Of a DNA stretch of 64,000 nt, positions 3,848-63,174 are shown piece after piece. The notes beneath the pieces are model-generated. The model ran no database searches and had not been told where the DNA came from. It worked only from the letters and a program-made list of their open reading frames with translations. The stretch comes from Seonamhaeicola sp. S2-3 (GTDB lineage Bacteria; Bacteroidota; Bacteroidia; Flavobacteriales; Flavobacteriaceae), in NCBI RefSeq assembly GCF_001971785.1, contig NZ_CP019389.1, forward strand, positions 2,057,001-2,121,000. The letters run 5' to 3'. The translations under genes and the position numbers were made by a program. Position 1 is the first letter of the stretch, and every line of letters starts with the position of its first letter.

Positions 3848-3973
3848 ATGTTATCAAGAAAGGTGGAGGGATTAGACCCAATGAAACCTTAGCAACCCTT
3901 TAAACTTATTAAAGAAGGTGCTAAATTCTACTTAAACTACCAATTCATTTATTGGTGTTTGGATAGATAACTT
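3848..3973 (+). promoter_or_regulatory. SAM-I (S-box) riboswitch upstream of metY
   Basis: The segment carries the S-box core. P1 is GTTATC (3850-3855) pairing GATAAC (3966-3971). After P1 come the AAGAAAGGTGGAGGGA kink-turn region, CCCAATGAAACC, the AGCAACC junction and AAGGTGCTAAATTC. A variable P4-like hairpin (ACCAATTCATTTATTGGT) closes the domain. The class binds S-adenosylmethionine and turns genes off when it is abundant. It precedes metY and the metX-AK-HSD fusion gene, which fits. A hairpin with weak T-run at 3977-3999 may be the expression platform. Confidence 0.93.
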
Positions 3974-21357: not shown

Positions 21358-21383
21358 TCAACCAAGTTCATTAACGTGTTAGT

Positions 21384-21506
21384 GTTATCAAGAAAGGTAG
21401 AGGGAATAGACCCAATGAAACCTTGGCAACCCTTTAACTTGTAAAGAAGGTGCTACGTTCTACTGTTAATTCTGAAATTATTTCAGACATAAAACAGAAA
21501 GATAAC
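21384..21506 (+). promoter_or_regulatory. SAM-I (S-box) riboswitch upstream of metH
   Basis: P1 is GTTATC (21384-21389) pairing GATAAC (21501-21506). The core reads AAGAAAGGTAGAGGGA, CCCAATGAAACC, TTGGCAACC and AAGGTGCTACGTTC, near-identical in order to the copy at 3848. It precedes the split metH and metF genes, consistent with feedback by S-adenosylmethionine. Confidence 0.93.
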
Positions 21507-21532
21507 GAATAGTATTTTTTACTTTTCTTGAT

Positions 21533-32620: not shown

Positions 32621-32701
32621 AATGATTATATAAACTAAAGTAAGTTTTGCTGTAAAATCTTTAAAACTTTTAAAAAAAATACAAAAAAGTAATTTTACAA
32701 T

Positions 32702-32731
32702 TTTGATTTCTTAAAATATTAATTACTTTAG
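32702..32731 (+). promoter_or_regulatory. Promoter of the aromatic amino acid operon
   Basis: TTTG (32702-32705), 18 bases, then TACTTTAG (32724-32731), one mismatch from TAnnTTTG. The predicted start near 32737 places the transcript start a few bases before the leader peptide ATG at 32743, so the leader would be translated as soon as it emerges. Confidence 0.65.
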
Positions 32732-32742
32732 CCGCTGTAATT

Positions 32743-32799
32743 ATGAGAACAACAGCAGTTTATACATATTTTAGCTTTTATTACTTCTTTTTTAGTTAA
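32743..32799 (+). CDS. Phe/Tyr-rich leader peptide of the aromatic operon attenuator
   Basis: A short frame encodes MRTTAVYTYFSFYYFFFS and stops with TAA at 32797. Nine of its last twelve residues are aromatic (four Tyr, five Phe), including TAT TAC TTC TTT TTT in tandem. It sits between a good promoter and a terminator that directly precedes pheA. This is the arrangement of ribosome-mediated attenuation: scarcity of charged tRNA-Phe or tRNA-Tyr would stall the ribosome here and favour the antiterminator at 32805-32854. The peptide itself probably has no other job. It is too short for standard gene finders. Confidence 0.85.
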   Translation: MRTTAVYTYFSFYYFFFS

Positions 32800-32804
32800 A
32801 GGAA

Positions 32805-32854
32805 CGAGGCTTTATATGTGTAAATTAAAATAATAAATTTAAATATAAGTCTCG
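32805..32854 (+). promoter_or_regulatory. Antiterminator of the aromatic operon attenuator
   Basis: CGAGGCTTTATAT (32805-32817) can pair with ATATAAGTCTCG (32843-32854), twelve pairs with one G-U and one bulged base. The 3' strand includes the whole left arm of the terminator at 32847-32854, so the two structures are mutually exclusive. A ribosome resting at the leader stop (32797-32799) would cover the 5' strand and allow termination. Confidence 0.8.
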
Positions 32855-32876
32855 GTGAAAATCGGGACTTTTTTTT
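32847..32876 (+). terminator. Attenuator terminator immediately upstream of pheA
   Basis: AAGTCTCG (32847-32854) pairs with CGGGACTT (32863-32870) with one G-U pair, loop GTGAAAAT, followed by eight T residues that run right up to the pheA ATG at 32877. It is an intrinsic terminator by form, placed between the leader peptide and the first structural gene. Confidence 0.9.
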
Positions 32877-33704
32877 ATGATAAAATCAGTAGCAATACAA
32901 GGAGTAAAGGGATCTTATCATCATATTGTTTCAGAACAATTTTTTGATAATTCAGTAGAACTTATAGAATGTTTAACATTTGATAGAGTGGTTGAGGTTT
33001 TAACCACCAAGCACTGTGACGCAGCTATTATGGCTTTAGAAAACTCTATTGCAGGTTCTATAATCCCAAATTACGCATTAATAGATAGCCATAATTTACA
33101 TATTGTTGGAGAACATTATTTAGATATCCAGCATAACCTAATGGCGTTGCCAGGGCAAAGTATAGAAGATATAAAAGAGGTGTATTCTCACCCAATGGCA
33201 CTATTACAATGTAAGGAGTTCTTTAAAAAACATCCTCATATTAAATTAGTAGAGGATAAAGATACCGCAGAGGTAGCAGATAGAATACATAGCAATCAAC
33301 TTAAAAATGTAGGTGCAATTGCCAGTGTTTTGGCAGCTAAAATTTTTGAGCTAGATATTTTGGCTAGCAGTATCCAAACTATAAAAAATAATGAGACTCG
33401 TTTTGCTATTGTAAAAAGAACCAATTCGGAAGTGTCGCAAAGCGAAATAAATAAAGCGTCTATAAAATTTGAGGCTAACCATAAAAGAGGAAGTTTAGCC
33501 ACCATTTTAAATGTAATGAGCGATTGTAAATTGAATTTAACTAAAATACAATCCTTACCAATTATTGAAACACCTTGGAAGTATGCCTTTTTTGTTGATG
33601 TTACTTTTGAAGATTACAGCGATTTCCAAAAAGCAAAATCGCTTATAGAAATAATGGCCGAAGGATTTAAAATATTAGGTGAATATAAAAATGCAAAGTT
33701 ATGA
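32877..33704 (+). CDS. pheA: Prephenate dehydratase PheA
   Basis: A 275-residue enzyme that converts prephenate to phenylpyruvate for phenylalanine. The periplasmic-binding-like catalytic domain runs from VAIQGVKGSYHH to the catalytic NNETRFAIVKR (Thr-Arg-Phe). A C-terminal ACT domain follows from about residue 195 (SIKFEANHKRGSLATILN, then ESLP-type QSLPIIETPWKYAFFVDV), which normally senses phenylalanine. No chorismate mutase domain is attached; that activity is fused to the DAHP synthase later in the operon. It overlaps the aminotransferase gene by 4 bp. The start is set immediately after the terminator T-run. Confidence 0.95.
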   Translation: MIKSVAIQGVKGSYHHIVSEQFFDNSVELIECLTFDRVVEVLTTKHCDAAIMALENSIAGSIIPNYALIDSHNLHIVGEHYLDIQHNLMALPGQSIEDIKEVYSHPMALLQCKEFFKKHPHIKLVEDKDTAEVADRIHSNQLKNVGAIASVLAAKIFELDILASSIQTIKNNETRFAIVKRTNSEVSQSEINKASIKFEANHKRGSLATILNVMSDCKLNLTKIQSLPIIETPWKYAFFVDVTFEDYSDFQKAKSLIEIMAEGFKILGEYKNAKL

Positions 33705-34846
33705 TTGAAGTAGCTAACAGATTGCATACCGTACAAGAATACTATTTCTCAAGAAAATTGAGAGAAGTGAATACCATGATTGCAGAGGGTAAACCCGTTA
33801 TTAATTTGGGTATTGGTAGTCCAGATATGCAACCACCACAAAAGGTAATTGAAGCTATAACAAGTAGTTTAAAAGAAGTTAACGCTCATAAATATCAAAG
33901 TTATCAAGGGGTTCCAGAGTTGCGCGAAGCTATGGCATCATTTTATAAAGAGCAATTTTCTGTTAACGTAAATCCTGCTAATGAAATTCTTCCTTTAATG
34001 GGGAGTAAAGAAGGTATTATGCATATATCAATGGCTTACCTAAATGAAGGCGATGCTGTTTTAATTCCAAACCCAGGTTATCCAACTTACCAATCTGTAA
34101 CCAAATTGGTAGGCGCTACACCCGTTTTTTACGAATTAGACGCTGCAAATAATTGGTTGCCAAATATTGATGCACTAGAAAAGTTAGATTTAAGCAATGT
34201 TAAGTTAATGTGGGTAAATTATCCGCATATGCCAACAGGAGCACAACCAACAGAAGCTGCTTTTAAGAGTTTAGTCGCTTTTGCCAAACGTCATAACATC
34301 TTAATTGTAAATGATAATCCATATAGTTTTGTGCTTAATGACAACCCCACAAGTATTCTAAATATAGATGGAGCAAAAGAAGTTTGTTTAGAGTTAAACT
34401 CTTTAAGCAAAACCTTTAATATGGCTGGTTGGCGAGTAGGTATGGTTTTGGGTAGTAGTGAACATATTAGTAACATTTTAAAAGTAAAAAGTAACATGGA
34501 TTCGGGCATGTTTTATGGCATTCAAAAAGGCGCTATAGAAGCCTTAAAATGTTCTAAAAATTGGTTTGTAGCATTAAACAATGTATATAAAAAACGTAGA
34601 GATTTGGTTTGGAAATTAGCCAAAACTCTTAATTGTACTTATGATGAAAACGCTACAGGTATGTTTGTTTGGGCTAAATTACCACATGGTATAAAGTCTG
34701 AAGAGTTTATTGATATCATTCTAAAAAACAACCATGTGTTTATAACACCAGGAACCATTTTTGGTAGCCAAGGTGAAGGGTACATAAGGTTTTCACTTTG
34801 TGCACCGGCAGAAGTAATAGAAGAATGTATAGTAAGAATTAAGTAG
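33701..34846 (+). CDS. Class I/II aminotransferase of the aromatic operon
   Basis: A 381-residue fold-type I PLP aminotransferase. Motifs include INLGIGSPDMQPPQKVIEA, the GSKEGIMH substrate loop, NPGYPTY, the PLP lysine in SLSKTFNMAGWRVG and the C-terminal RFSLCAP arginine. The usual NYPNNPTG motif reads NYPHMPTGA. From its position between pheA and tyrA, with 4 bp and 1 bp junctions, it should transaminate phenylpyruvate and hydroxyphenylpyruvate, or prephenate (inference). Sequence similarity to LL-diaminopimelate and aspartate aminotransferases means the substrate cannot be fixed by motif alone. Confidence 0.85.
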   Translation: MIEVANRLHTVQEYYFSRKLREVNTMIAEGKPVINLGIGSPDMQPPQKVIEAITSSLKEVNAHKYQSYQGVPELREAMASFYKEQFSVNVNPANEILPLMGSKEGIMHISMAYLNEGDAVLIPNPGYPTYQSVTKLVGATPVFYELDAANNWLPNIDALEKLDLSNVKLMWVNYPHMPTGAQPTEAAFKSLVAFAKRHNILIVNDNPYSFVLNDNPTSILNIDGAKEVCLELNSLSKTFNMAGWRVGMVLGSSEHISNILKVKSNMDSGMFYGIQKGAIEALKCSKNWFVALNNVYKKRRDLVWKLAKTLNCTYDENATGMFVWAKLPHGIKSEEFIDIILKNNHVFITPGTIFGSQGEGYIRFSLCAPAEVIEECIVRIK

Positions 34847-34847
34847 T

Positions 34848-35699
34848 ATGAAGAATATATATTTCATAGGAATTGGATTAATAGGCGGTAGTCTTGCTAA
34901 AGATATAAAGAAGCATAACCCAGATACTGTTATACATGGTATAAGCAGAAAAGATGCTACTTTAGAGCAAGCCTTATCATTAAATTTAATAGACAAAAAA
35001 GCCACTTTTGATGATATTGAACAAGCCGATTTGGTTATTGTATCTATTCCAGTTGATGCCACGGTAAAACTATTACCAACCATACTAGATAAAGTTCCAG
35101 ATAATGCTTTGGTAATAGATGCGGGCTCAACAAAAGAAGCCATATGTAAAGCCGTAGAAAATCATCCTAAAAGGAGAAATTTTTTAGCAGCACACCCCAT
35201 TGCAGGTACCGAACATTCGGGTCCAAGTGCAGCCATTAGTGGCTTATTTGAAGGTAAAACAAATATTATTTGCGAAGTAGAAAAAACAGCCTTTAAACTT
35301 CAGGAAAAAGCCTTAGAGATTTTTAGAAATTTAGGAATGCGTATTCGTTATATGAATCCAGAAGCCCATGATAAGCATATAGCCTATGTTTCTCACTTAT
35401 CGCACATTAGCTCCTTTATGTTAGGTAAAACGGTTATTGATAAAGAACGAAACGAACGCGATATTTTTGATATGGCAGGCAGTGGTTTTGCTTCAACAGT
35501 AAGGCTAGCTAAAAGTTCACCTGAAATGTGGACTCCCATTTTCAAACAAAATAAAGACAATGTTATAGAAACATTAGAAGAATATATAAACAACCTTTCT
35601 CATTTTAAAGACTTAATGAAACAAGATAATTTTGAAGCCATTTTTGATGAGATGAAAAACACAAATTATATAAAAGAGATATTAAACGGAATCAATTAA
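34848..35699 (+). CDS. tyrA: Prephenate dehydrogenase TyrA
   Basis: A 283-residue NAD-dependent enzyme converting prephenate to 4-hydroxyphenylpyruvate for tyrosine. The Rossmann loop FIGIGLIGGSLAKDI opens the protein. VIDAGSTKEAI, the catalytic AAHPIAGTEHSGPSAA and HDKHIAYVSHLSHISSFML follow, then the helical dimer domain. There is no mutase or ACT domain, so feedback must come from elsewhere, such as the attenuator. The start codon lies one base after the aminotransferase stop region. Confidence 0.93.
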   Translation: MKNIYFIGIGLIGGSLAKDIKKHNPDTVIHGISRKDATLEQALSLNLIDKKATFDDIEQADLVIVSIPVDATVKLLPTILDKVPDNALVIDAGSTKEAICKAVENHPKRRNFLAAHPIAGTEHSGPSAAISGLFEGKTNIICEVEKTAFKLQEKALEIFRNLGMRIRYMNPEAHDKHIAYVSHLSHISSFMLGKTVIDKERNERDIFDMAGSGFASTVRLAKSSPEMWTPIFKQNKDNVIETLEEYINNLSHFKDLMKQDNFEAIFDEMKNTNYIKEILNGIN

Positions 35700-35786: not shown

Positions 35787-36869
35787 ATGGAAAACAAAAA
35801 AGAATTAAGAAGTTGGTTAGATGATTTAAATTTAGATCATCCGTTAGTGATTGCAGGACCATGTAGTGCAGAAACAGAAGAGCAAGTATTAAAAATTGCT
35901 CATGAATTAAAAGATACAGACGTAACTTATTTTAGAGCGGGTATCTGGAAACCAAGAACCAGACCTGGTAATTTTGAAGGCGTGGGAGCTTTAGGGCTAA
36001 AGTGGCTACAAAAAGTAAAAGAAGAAACAGGAATGAAAGTTTGTACAGAAGTAGCCAATGCTGCTCATGTAAAACTAGCTTTAGAGCATGATATTGACAT
36101 GCTTTGGATTGGAGCTCGCTCAACAGTTTCTCCATTTATCATGCAAGAAATTGCAGATGCTTTAGAAGGTACAGATAAACCAGTATTAATTAAAAATCCT
36201 GTTAACCCAGATTTAGCACTTTGGTTAGGAGGGATTGAAAGAATTTATAGTTCTGGCGTTAAAAATATTGGCGCTATTCATAGAGGGTTTTCTACTTATG
36301 AAAAAACCAAATACAGAAATAACCCTAACTGGCAAATGGCTATTGAATTTCAAAACAAATTCCCAGATATTCCATTAATTAACGATCCTTCTCATATTAC
36401 AGGTAAGAGAGATATGGTTTTTGATGTATCTCAAGTTGCTTTAGATTTAAATTTTGATGGTTTAATGATAGAAACACATCATAACCCAGAAAAAGCATGG
36501 AGTGATGCAGCACAACAAGTAACACCAAATACCTTAGTTCAAATCATGAGAGATTTAAAGGTTAAAAAAGAAGAAGATCCAGAGGCAGATTACAATAATA
36601 AACTTGATAATTTAAGAGCCCAAATAGATGTTGTAGATCATGAAATTATTGAACTTTTAGGAAAACGCATGCAAGTATCTGATGGTATTGGAAAGCTTAA
36701 AAAAGAGAAAAATCTTTCTGTTTTACAAAGTAAACGTTGGAATGAGATTTTAGGTAGAATGGTACTTGAAGGTCAAGAACATGGTTTAAGTGAAGAGTTT
36801 ATCTTAAAAATGTTTAAAGCTATTCACCAAGAATCTATTAACCACCAAGAGAAAATTATTAACGGTTAA
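35787..36869 (+). CDS. Bifunctional DAHP synthase / chorismate mutase
   Basis: A 360-residue fusion. Residues 1-265 are a type I-beta 3-deoxy-7-phosphoheptulonate synthase (PLVIAGPCSAETEEQ, YFRAGIWKPRTRPGNFEG, IGARSTVSPF, NDPSHITGKRD, GLMIETHHNPEKA). Residues 275-360 are an AroQ-type chorismate mutase (LRAQIDVVDHEIIELLGKRM, with the later IHQESINHQEKI helix). It joins the first step of the shikimate pathway to the branch-point step that feeds pheA and tyrA, and mutase-based feedback is typical of such fusions. It is the last gene of the attenuated operon and is followed by a terminator. Confidence 0.94.
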   Translation: MENKKELRSWLDDLNLDHPLVIAGPCSAETEEQVLKIAHELKDTDVTYFRAGIWKPRTRPGNFEGVGALGLKWLQKVKEETGMKVCTEVANAAHVKLALEHDIDMLWIGARSTVSPFIMQEIADALEGTDKPVLIKNPVNPDLALWLGGIERIYSSGVKNIGAIHRGFSTYEKTKYRNNPNWQMAIEFQNKFPDIPLINDPSHITGKRDMVFDVSQVALDLNFDGLMIETHHNPEKAWSDAAQQVTPNTLVQIMRDLKVKKEEDPEADYNNKLDNLRAQIDVVDHEIIELLGKRMQVSDGIGKLKKEKNLSVLQSKRWNEILGRMVLEGQEHGLSEEFILKMFKAIHQESINHQEKIING

Positions 36870-57982: not shown

Positions 57983-59505
<1,523 letters not shown>

Positions 59506-59558
59506 AGAGAAAGACGACTAATAGGTAAAAGTTTTTAAGAAAGAAATAGTTTATTCTT

Positions 59559-59650
59559 CTTGCTGTTAATTTTAAAATATAAAAGTAAGTCATTAAGTAT
59601 TAGTGATTAGGTAATCTAAGCGCTAAAAGCTGAGGACTCACGACTAAGTA
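59559..59650 (+). other. 16S-tRNA spacer: 3' strand of processing stem and short repeats
   Basis: Bases 59559-59580 (ending TTTAAAATAT) are the complement of the 16S leader segment 57856-57877. From about 59585 to 59650, short related units (TAAGTATTAGTGATTAGG, GCTAAAAGCTGAGGACT) form a degenerate repeat tract before tRNA-Ile. Confidence 0.55.
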
Positions 59651-59651
59651 C

Positions 59652-59725
59652 AGTCTCATAGCTCAGCTGGTTAGAGCGCTACACTGATAATGTAGAGGTC
59701 GGCAGTTCGAGTCTGCCTGAGACTA
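59652..59725 (+). tRNA. tRNA-Ile (anticodon GAT)
   Basis: A 74-base cloverleaf. The acceptor AGTCTCA (59652-59658) pairs TGAGACT (59718-59724), discriminator A at 59725. The D arm is GCTCAGCTGGTTAGAGC, the anticodon loop CTGATAA contains GAT, and the T arm holds GTTCGAGTC. CCA is not encoded. It lies in the 16S-23S spacer, the usual place. Confidence 0.97.
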
Positions 59726-59756
59726 CAAGTTAAGGTTGGGTAAGAAAATCTTAATA

Positions 59757-59865
59757 AGTTCATTAAATATTGAAAGGAAATTTTAGAAGTTGGGTATCCC
59801 AAGTTGACGTATAGGTCATCAATTAACTGATAACTGTTAACTGATAACTGACTACTGAAAATACA
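59757..59865 (+). repeat. tRNA-Ile / tRNA-Ala spacer with repeated leader motif and heptamer-like repeats
   Basis: A shortened copy of the leader motif, AGTTCATTAAATATTGAAA, is at 59757-59775. Around 59822-59856, the units TTAACTGATAACTG repeat (AACTGATAACTGTTAACTGA, then TAACTGACTACTG), producing strong self-complementarity. No gene is present. Confidence 0.65.
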
Positions 59866-59940
<75 letters not shown>

Positions 59941-59961
59941 CAATTCCGCAGAGCGGAAAAA

Positions 59962-59999
59962 GGTTCATTGACATATTGAAAAAGATACATGAAAATAAA
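59962..59999 (+). other. 23S rRNA leader motif and 5' strand of processing stem
   Basis: GGTTCATTGACATATTGAAA (59962-59981) is the third copy of the leader motif. Bases 59969-59999 pair almost perfectly with 62939-62969, about 28 of 30 positions counting G-U pairs. This long helix would loop out the 23S rRNA for RNase III-type cleavage. Confidence 0.75.
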
Positions 60000-60092
60000 A
60001 TTAGAATAAGATCTAGTTTTAAGTAATTTGGATTAATTAGAGTCACGCGAGCGACAATCTAATTAATCATAACTCATTAAAAAAGCAAAAAG

Positions 60093-62912
<2,820 letters not shown>

Positions 62913-62938
62913 CGCCTGTTTTTTTATAAGAGTAGAAA

Positions 62939-63060
62939 TTATATTCATGTCATTTTTTTCAATATGTTAAAATATTTGCGCAAGTAGCGCGGTTGATAGT
63001 TGATAGTTATTAGTTGGAAAAAGATACAACAACTAAAAACTACAAATTAACAACCAACAG
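62939..63060 (+). other. 23S-5S spacer: 3' strand of processing stem and heptamer-like repeats
   Basis: Bases 62939-62969 complement the 23S leader strand. From about 62992 to 63060, units like GTTGATAGTTATTAGTTGG and CAACAACTAAAAACTACAA form complementary repeats that could fold back on each other. Confidence 0.6.
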
Positions 63061-63063
63061 TTT

Positions 63064-63168
63064 AAGGTGGTTATAGCAATGGGGCTCACCTCTTACCATT
63101 CCGAACAGAGAAGTTAAGCCCATTAGCGCCGATGGTACTACGTTTGTGGGAGAGTAGGTCATCGCCTT
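63064..63168 (+). rRNA. rrf: 5S ribosomal RNA
   Basis: About 105 bases with 5S landmarks: AGGTGGTTATAGCAATGGGG at the start, CACCTCTTACCATTCCGAAC, AGAGAAGTTAAGCCCATTAG, GATGGTACTACG and GTGGGAGAGTAGGTCATCGCC-type closing end, here read as GGGAGAGTAGGTCATCGCC. It ends just before the T-run that precedes the operon terminator. Confidence 0.95.
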
Positions 63169-63174
63169 TTTTTG

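Follow-up and report, generated by a model that had tools for sequence, protein, structure and literature searches.

Upstream of pheA in Seonamhaeicola sp. S2-3 lies a short open reading frame crowded with phenylalanine and tyrosine codons, together with a terminator hairpin, and the question that this locus raises is whether a ribosome translating the short frame decides if transcription continues into the genes behind it. The answer favoured here, with a probability of about 0.9, is that the region is a ribosome-mediated transcription attenuator of the pheA–aminotransferase–tyrA–DAHP synthase/chorismate mutase operon, which would sense charged Phe- and Tyr-tRNA. In what follows, the window is the whole stretch of 64,000 nucleotides that was analysed, and all coordinates refer to it.

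The leader frame encodes MRTTAVYTYFSFYYFFFS and ends in a TAA stop; read directly from the sequence, its 18 codons include five for Phe and four for Tyr. Folding with RNAfold yields three helices from four strands (Table 1). Helix 1:2 pairs 32758-32769 with 32814-32825 and 32773-32778 with 32806-32811, giving a hairpin (32757-32825) of -17.4 kcal/mol. The antiterminator, helix 2:3, joins 32805-32811 to 32848-32854 and 32815-32819 to 32843-32847, is extended by 32821-32826 with 32836-32841, and reaches -12.5 kcal/mol. The terminator stem 3:4 (32847-32856 with 32861-32870; -11.9 kcal/mol) draws its 5' arm, 32847-32856, from within the strand 3 region, so that these bases have a double role, and its eight T residues (32869-32876) directly abut the pheA ATG at 32877. 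Shuffled sequence would be expected to produce 0.2 terminator-like sites per 600-base stretch around the leader. In the minimum-energy fold of the entire leader, 1:2 occurs together with 3:4. The first-pass annotation had described an 18-codon leader with nine Phe/Tyr codons upstream of pheA, an antiterminator of 32805-32817 with 32843-32854, an overlapping terminator whose eight T's reach the pheA start codon, and a strand 2 that starts six bases past the leader stop. All of these were recovered at their places, the last as five bases between the stop and strand 2, which begins at the sixth. It had also called the attenuator complete; the parts it listed are present, and a third helix, 1:2, had been missed. 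With this helix added, the element counts as a full four-strand attenuator, more complete than first claimed, and in the folding model it is a full trp-type set of 1:2, 2:3 and 3:4.

Table 1. Features of the leader region and of the operon behind it, in window coordinates.
Feature	Position	Strand	Basis
Promoter-like site, Bacteroidota type, TTTTG-N18-TACTTTAG	32701..32731	+	motif scan
Leader ORF MRTTAVYTYFSFYYFFFS, with stop	32743..32799	+	sequence; conserved in close relatives
Strand 1 (leader bases, partner of strand 2)	32758..32778	+	folding; shuffle tests
Strand 2 (antiterminator 5' strand; also partner of strand 1)	32805..32826	+	folding; shuffle tests
Strand 3 (antiterminator 3' strand)	32836..32854	+	folding; close-alignment covariation
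Intrinsic terminator 3:4 + T8	32847..32876	+	terminator scan; folding
pheA, prephenate dehydratase, C-terminal ACT-like region	32877..33704	+	PF00800, E 4.6e-56
Class I/II aminotransferase, 4-base overlap with pheA	33701..34846	+	domain search
tyrA, prephenate dehydrogenase	34848..35699	+	above NCBIfam cut-off
DAHP synthase fused to chorismate mutase	35787..36869	+	PF00793 + PF01817, both above cut-offs

Elsewhere, the window carries two SAM riboswitches above the Rfam gathering score (3848-3973 and 21382-21508, both on the forward strand) and, at 57984-63170 (+), a set of rRNA genes (16S, 23S and 5S) in which two tRNA genes separate 16S from 23S.

The leader, the three mutually exclusive helices, their coevolution and their spacing can be read from the sequences, and they suggest the following course of switching. 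When aromatic amino acids are ample, the ribosome would read to the stop codon and its front would cover strand 2; 3:4 would then pair, and RNA polymerase would terminate just before pheA. When Phe or Tyr is short, the ribosome would stall on an aromatic codon, breaking or blocking 1:2 and halting before strand 2. With the ribosome stalled in the leader, 2:3 would form first and the terminator could not form. If the leader were not translated at all, 1:2 and 3:4 would both form and transcription would end.

This course was modelled by keeping leader bases single-stranded to mimic the ribosome and then folding the RNA. A mask up to 32803 on RNA cut at 32860 gives the antiterminator (-12.5); extending the mask to 32817 abolishes it (0.0), and longer RNA keeps the terminator. 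When the mask ends at 32803 and strand 4 is present, the terminator and a small hairpin (-14.1) appear, not the antiterminator. The masked fold that the first-pass annotation had proposed as a check behaves as predicted before strand 4 is made and departs from the prediction once strand 4 is present. Because the terminator is favoured once strand 4 exists, antitermination would have to be kinetic, with 2:3 forming first. Such reliance on an antiterminator that forms first is usual for attenuator-type switches.

The genes behind the leader bear on which amino acids the element would serve. The ACT region of pheA matches PF01842 at E 1.7e-4, which is under that profile's cut-off. The DAHP synthase/chorismate mutase catalyses the step at which aromatic synthesis begins. 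An operon that makes Phe and Tyr and also feeds the common pathway fits a leader reading both amino acids, and the gene content (pheA, tyrA, aminotransferase and DAHP synthase) agrees with the earlier suggestion that such a leader suits an operon making both. An aminotransferase match lies near pheA in 80 of 80 close loci and in 29 of 29 and 27 of 39 loci of two further sets, as counted, irrespective of gene order, within a fetched stretch of up to 1.5 kb on each side of pheA. In one locus (L172, genome G362), an aromatic leader and terminator precede an aminotransferase gene, and its 1.4 kb stretch holds no pheA. At the position of the window's pheA ATG, the 81 close loci (window included) have ATG in 45 cases, TTG in 34 and GTG in 2; as far as the lists were compared, TTG is found where terminator and gene lie far apart.

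The promoter, which had been described as good, calls for a correction. On the leader's strand, a scan with the E. coli sigma-70 consensus, which is uninformative for Bacteroidota, found no promoter. The TTTTG-N18-TACTTTAG site, which is promoter-like in the Bacteroidota manner, belongs to a kind that is common by chance (3.4 expected vs 4 found within the window). A -7-like element, defined as TAnnTTWG within 75 nt before the leader ATG, is enriched over controls: 75 of the 79 close loci, the window among them, and 89 of 118 wider loci have it, vs 20 of 157 control stretches.

Whether the arrangement is kept by relatives was examined in loci fetched through the pheA protein. The close set consists of the best 80 of 568 confirmed loci, by their titles nearly all from Flavobacteriaceae. 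Wider samples at the level of order, class and phylum gave pheA-protein matches in 120 of 196, 43 of 148 and 102 of 118 genomes, respectively; these samples overlap and include the family, and the best 30 places of each became loci. The best-scoring loci of the order search (L179-207), 20 hand-picked from its weaker matches (L208-227) and the best-scoring new loci of the class search (L228-253) were compared with the close set, the class being taken as Bacteroidia from the window's family. Among the 155 pheA-fetched loci one genome appears twice (L225, L230), and named and unnamed sets may share others. The search rule asked for an ATG-initiated ORF of 8-50 codons whose end lies close to a terminator hairpin and in which some stretch of 10 codons specifies at least five aromatic residues. 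Such a leader was found in 227 of 245 upstream regions, window included, and in 138 of the 155 pheA-fetched loci, a count that leaves aside the window and the loci L089-178. In the close set the figure is 78 of 80, the other two being truncated at contig ends; it is 29 of 29 for L179-207, 12 of 20 for L208-227 and 19 of 26 for L228-253. The terminator is present in 81 of 81 close loci (window included), its motif having been written after inspection of those loci, and in L245 the chosen terminator, 223 nt from the gene, looks wrong.

A plain terminator of some unrelated short RNA, accompanied by a chance ORF, could in principle imitate this arrangement, since AT-rich DNA yields Phe- and Tyr-rich frames and the window holds two loose candidates elsewhere. 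The same rule found a leader in none of 735 dinucleotide shuffles, in one of 245 reverse-strand sequences and in two of 1050 further 330-nt stretches from the close loci, against the 138 of 155 above; because these controls almost never produce the arrangement, the chance reading was rejected and its probability is close to nil. The two candidates of the loose scan, at 36068 (-) and 55131 (+), are short Phe-rich ORFs near terminator-like hairpins and are probably chance; the one at 36068 lies antisense within the DAHP synthase gene.

By this rule the device is absent from 15 loci with enough upstream sequence (L211-214, L216, L220-222, L228, L229, L234, L235, L238, L240 and L241). L211 has an aromatic-rich ORF, MKKVKYKSRYLYYFLWWQF, but no terminator in range, and in L212-214 the prephenate dehydratase is distant, with 27-31% identity. 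L220-L222 come from reduced genomes of 0.3-0.6 Mb, symbiont-like by size, in which pheA is kept and no leader was found.

Forty-seven close leaders, with helices 1:2 and 3:4, served to build a covariance model, which gave one strong match in the window's own genome, namely this leader (E 1e-21), the next being at E 0.13, and matches in 297 of 397 family genomes at E <= 0.01. Neighbouring genes were checked for 90 of the family matches (L089-L178), which were selected by the model and hence are not independent evidence; with L172, which is without pheA, left out, 88 of these 89 loci carry the leader under the rule, and in the remaining one, L121, the leader sits further upstream. The earlier proposal to look for conserved aromatic codons upstream of pheA in relatives is answered in favour of the attenuator by the pheA-fetched loci, and the distribution indicates that the predicted aromatic attenuator extends beyond Flavobacteriaceae to many families of one Bacteroidota class.

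In 191 distinct leader ORFs drawn from the 227 regions, the distance from the last aromatic codon to the start of strand 2 is 5-13 nt in every case and exactly 11 nt in 98. When a codon occupies the A site, the ribosome's footprint extends about 10 nt past it; at the 11-nt offset, strand 2 would then be just free if the ribosome stalled at the last aromatic codon. In 160 leaders the stop codon is past strand 2 and in 18 it falls inside, which makes 178 of the 191 whose ORF enters or crosses that strand; the other 13, the window among them, have the stop 0-5 nt ahead of it. A ribosome at the stop would thus cover strand 2 wholly or in part. This spacing is consistent with a stalled ribosome that leaves strand 2 free and a terminating one that covers it. 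In most relatives the leader is longer than in the window, ending for example in YFFFSKRNETLYV and a stop. The close loci whose leader stops early, ahead of strand 2, are the window, L001, L007, L013, L024, L069 and L076. With the footprint given above, the window's early stop would mask only about 5 bases of strand 2, which counts against attenuation.

All 191 leaders contain both Phe and Tyr, and 114 contain Trp too, so that in many relatives the attenuator may also sense the supply of Trp-tRNA; the window's leader is without Trp codons. The final four aromatic positions typically read Y-F-F-F (Y in 160, F in 174, 168 and 167 of 191), a regularity that would also suit a TnaC-like arrest leader, whose nascent peptide would sense free aromatic amino acids within the ribosome. 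At these same positions, however, F, Y and sometimes W interchange, synonymous codons vary, and leader lengths range from 16 to 44 codons; moreover, a biosynthetic operon would be regulated in the wrong direction if surplus amino acid caused the arrest. The arrest peptide was rejected because of its interchangeable aromatics, synonymous codons and variable length, and retains a slim chance of being correct. Ribosome-mediated attenuation, in which aromatic codons are read through their charged tRNAs, is the preferred interpretation of these leaders.

The pairings were examined in a diverse set of 55 leaders, hand-picked among the loci that carry the arrangement, 10 of them from the group chosen by the covariance model. 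Native pairing was compared with 300 shuffles of strand 2. Helix 2:3 beats the shuffles at p<0.05 in 49 of 55 leaders (p<0.01 in 41), and helix 1:2 in 42 (p<0.01 in 20); the test was not passed at p<0.05 by 2:3 in 6 and by 1:2 in 13 of the 55. The results are given leader by leader, since a combined p-value would treat related leaders as independent. In 54 of 55 leaders, at least three strand 2 bases are common to 1:2 and 2:3, so the mutually exclusive pairings noted at the outset are kept in relatives. When the longest unbroken 2:3 run of each of the 55 leaders is taken, 44 distinct sequences occur, with a median of 8 pairs, and these runs comprise 391 Watson-Crick vs 36 G-U pairs. Examples include cgagac/gtctcg, cgggact/agtcccg, gtcaggattgtg/tacaatcctgat and gagcggtc/gaccgctc, as well as gccgggact/agtcccggc and acgggagg/cctcccgt. 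Helix sequences thus differ between relatives yet remain complementary, which is the compensatory change that the first-pass annotation had suggested looking for. Strand 1 tracks its own strand 2 in the cases traced, where YTY, SNR or WNG leader codons match it, and this would explain why some non-aromatic codons are kept.

Exchanging strands between leaders gave a weaker signal. A median of 24% of foreign strands 3 pair as well as or better than the native strand, with only 46 of 168 leaders at 5% or less, and the native pairing beats its own swap mean in 154 of 168; for 1:2 the median is 6%, with 80 of 168 at 5% or less. The weak result arises because related clades share core sequence, and the case for coevolution therefore rests on the shuffles and on the range of distinct helices. 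In the close alignment (A1), helix 2:3 has modest covariation, with 5 pairs changed on both sides (reached by 3 of 500 shuffles), and 82% of cells are paired vs 22-54% when the strands are slid. A plain MAFFT alignment of the diverse set placed strand 2 of some clades out of register, and column-wise covariation was therefore not counted there.

A structured 5' element with a terminator might also belong to a riboswitch, a T-box or a leader bound by a protein, the ORF then being incidental. At the leader, every Rfam family stays under its gathering score. Nine matches appear when E is allowed up to 10, and no T-box or riboswitch class is among them; one of these weak matches is the PyrR binding site (20.5 bits vs a gathering score of 54). 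The strand sequences turn over, whereas both the aromatic codons and the spacing between them and strand 2 are retained. Given the lack of Rfam support and the conserved codons and spacing, this explanation was rejected, and its prospects are very slim. The conserved codons, exclusive helices and spacing together support ribosome-mediated attenuation, as the first-pass annotation had read the locus.

The place of the terminator relative to the gene bears on a further alternative, a translation switch in which the hairpin beside the pheA ATG hides the start codon and is opened by the position of the leader ribosome. The T-tract abuts the start codon or lies within 6 nt of it in the window and in many relatives, which would suit such a switch. 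In other relatives, however, the same hairpin is found 22-105 nt before the start with its T-tract kept, and in L223 the distance is 134 nt; Shine-Dalgarno pairing is also rarely used by Bacteroidota. Across close relatives the gap between T-tract and pheA varies over 0-105 nt, and hairpin and T-tract are constant, so hiding of the start codon cannot be the common function, and the pattern fits a transcription switch. A hairpin that in some relatives lies far upstream of the start codon led to rejection of the translation switch, which keeps a small probability. Termination of transcription before pheA, governed by a leader ribosome, is the reading carried forward.

The pheA element does not stand alone in its genome. 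A His-rich leader, MTFIQTHHHFHICSQAK, with a terminator lies upstream of hisG (L267, G000:C1 ~3325932 (-)), a Trp leader, MNTQLNNTWWWCFRNSTFVK, with a terminator upstream of trpE (L268, G000:C1 ~443370 (+)), and an Ile/Val-rich leader, MKKQILNIISIIVIVIISQ, with a terminator about 360 nt upstream of ilvD (L270, G000:C1 ~1951686 (+)), each leader being closed by a stop codon. Pairing of strand 2 with the terminator 5' arm and loop beats shuffles in all three (his p 0.002, trp 0.042, ilv 0.012), and 1:2 is better than shuffles in his (0.018) and ilv (0.002) and not in trp (0.098). A hisG element has been named in Flavobacterium psychrophilum as well (PMC9723704).

Outside the class, two loci of the same phylum (L258 in G726 and L259 in G766) have a pheA 44% identical to the window's and an aromatic leader upstream, against pheA matches of 32-36% in other members of their families. 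It is possible that the operon was transferred horizontally together with its switch. Four other same-phylum loci (L263-L266; pheA 34-40%) have no aromatic leader that could be seen.

A broader view of these observations is that an old aromatic attenuator from an early Bacteroidia ancestor, reading Phe, Tyr and in many lineages Trp, able to travel with the operon and forming one of a set with the his, trp and ilv leaders, would make the following of RNA polymerase by ribosomes a main sensor of amino-acid supply in Bacteroidota; this view seems slightly favoured. Leader-peptide attenuation is textbook knowledge for Proteobacteria. If the view holds, transcription and translation would be closely coupled in Bacteroidota. 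Whether ribosomes stay close behind RNA polymerase in this phylum could readily be tested on the conserved aromatic attenuator. Through the attenuator, Phe and Tyr synthesis would come under feedback control, and those who work with flavobacteria could use it as a built-in sensor of amino acids.

Earlier work on this phylum bears on how new the element is. A comparative study by Vitreschak et al. in 2004 reportedly lists attenuators in Bacteroidetes/Chlorobi. The Bacteroid-trp RNA is linked to trp genes. It appears as a Bacteroidetes cis-regulatory RNA (RF01692, Weinberg 2010) in Table 1 of PMC2864571. On 32650-32950, RF01692 and the T-box families have no match at E up to 10. Short ORFs resembling leader peptides are mentioned for Bacteroides in PMC7366714, leader genes, those of Bacteroidetes included, are surveyed with reference to Lopatovskaya 2010 in PMC4833913, and the 2010 view of leader-peptide attenuation is set out in PMC2965389. 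For F. psychrophilum, PMC9723704 (2021) describes 'strong clues' for leader-peptide attenuation upstream of amino-acid operons and lists, ahead of pheA, a structured 5' element that has no Rfam hit and is said to be conserved in Flavobacteriaceae, other genera included. The pheA element is given a single sentence, with no leader, strands or amino acids in that main-text section, and it is very likely the same element as the one described here. The statement of the first-pass annotation that no example had been described in this phylum was thus too strong, given the pheA 5' element reported there. In the full-text literature searched, mostly outside subscription papers, only PMC9723704 was found to name a pheA element. 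The mechanism is already known; what the present analysis adds is the anatomy, the proposed co-sensing of Phe and Tyr and the spread beyond the family.

Among known attenuators, pheL of E. coli has a Phe-rich leader peptide with mutually exclusive antiterminator and terminator and reads Phe codons only. This system, Rfam Phe_leader RF01859, shares the target gene pheA with the element described here, and its model aligns at full length to 32756-32876 with 19.3 bits (E 0.65), against a gathering score of 55. In contrast to pheL, the present leader reads Phe and Tyr, in many relatives Trp too, and its operon adds tyrA and DAHP synthase. The trpL attenuator has four strands in the order 1:2, 2:3, 3:4 and a stop codon near strand 2. 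The strand order of E. coli trpL is alike and the amino acids differ; here, the loop that separates strands 1 and 2 holds many of the regulatory codons, and in most leaders (178/191) the ORF enters or crosses strand 2. The attenuators of ilvGMEDA and thrABC use a single leader with codons for more than one amino acid made by the operon. Those systems read branched-chain amino acids or Thr/Ile and belong to another phylum, whereas the leader of the pheA operon reads aromatic amino acids.
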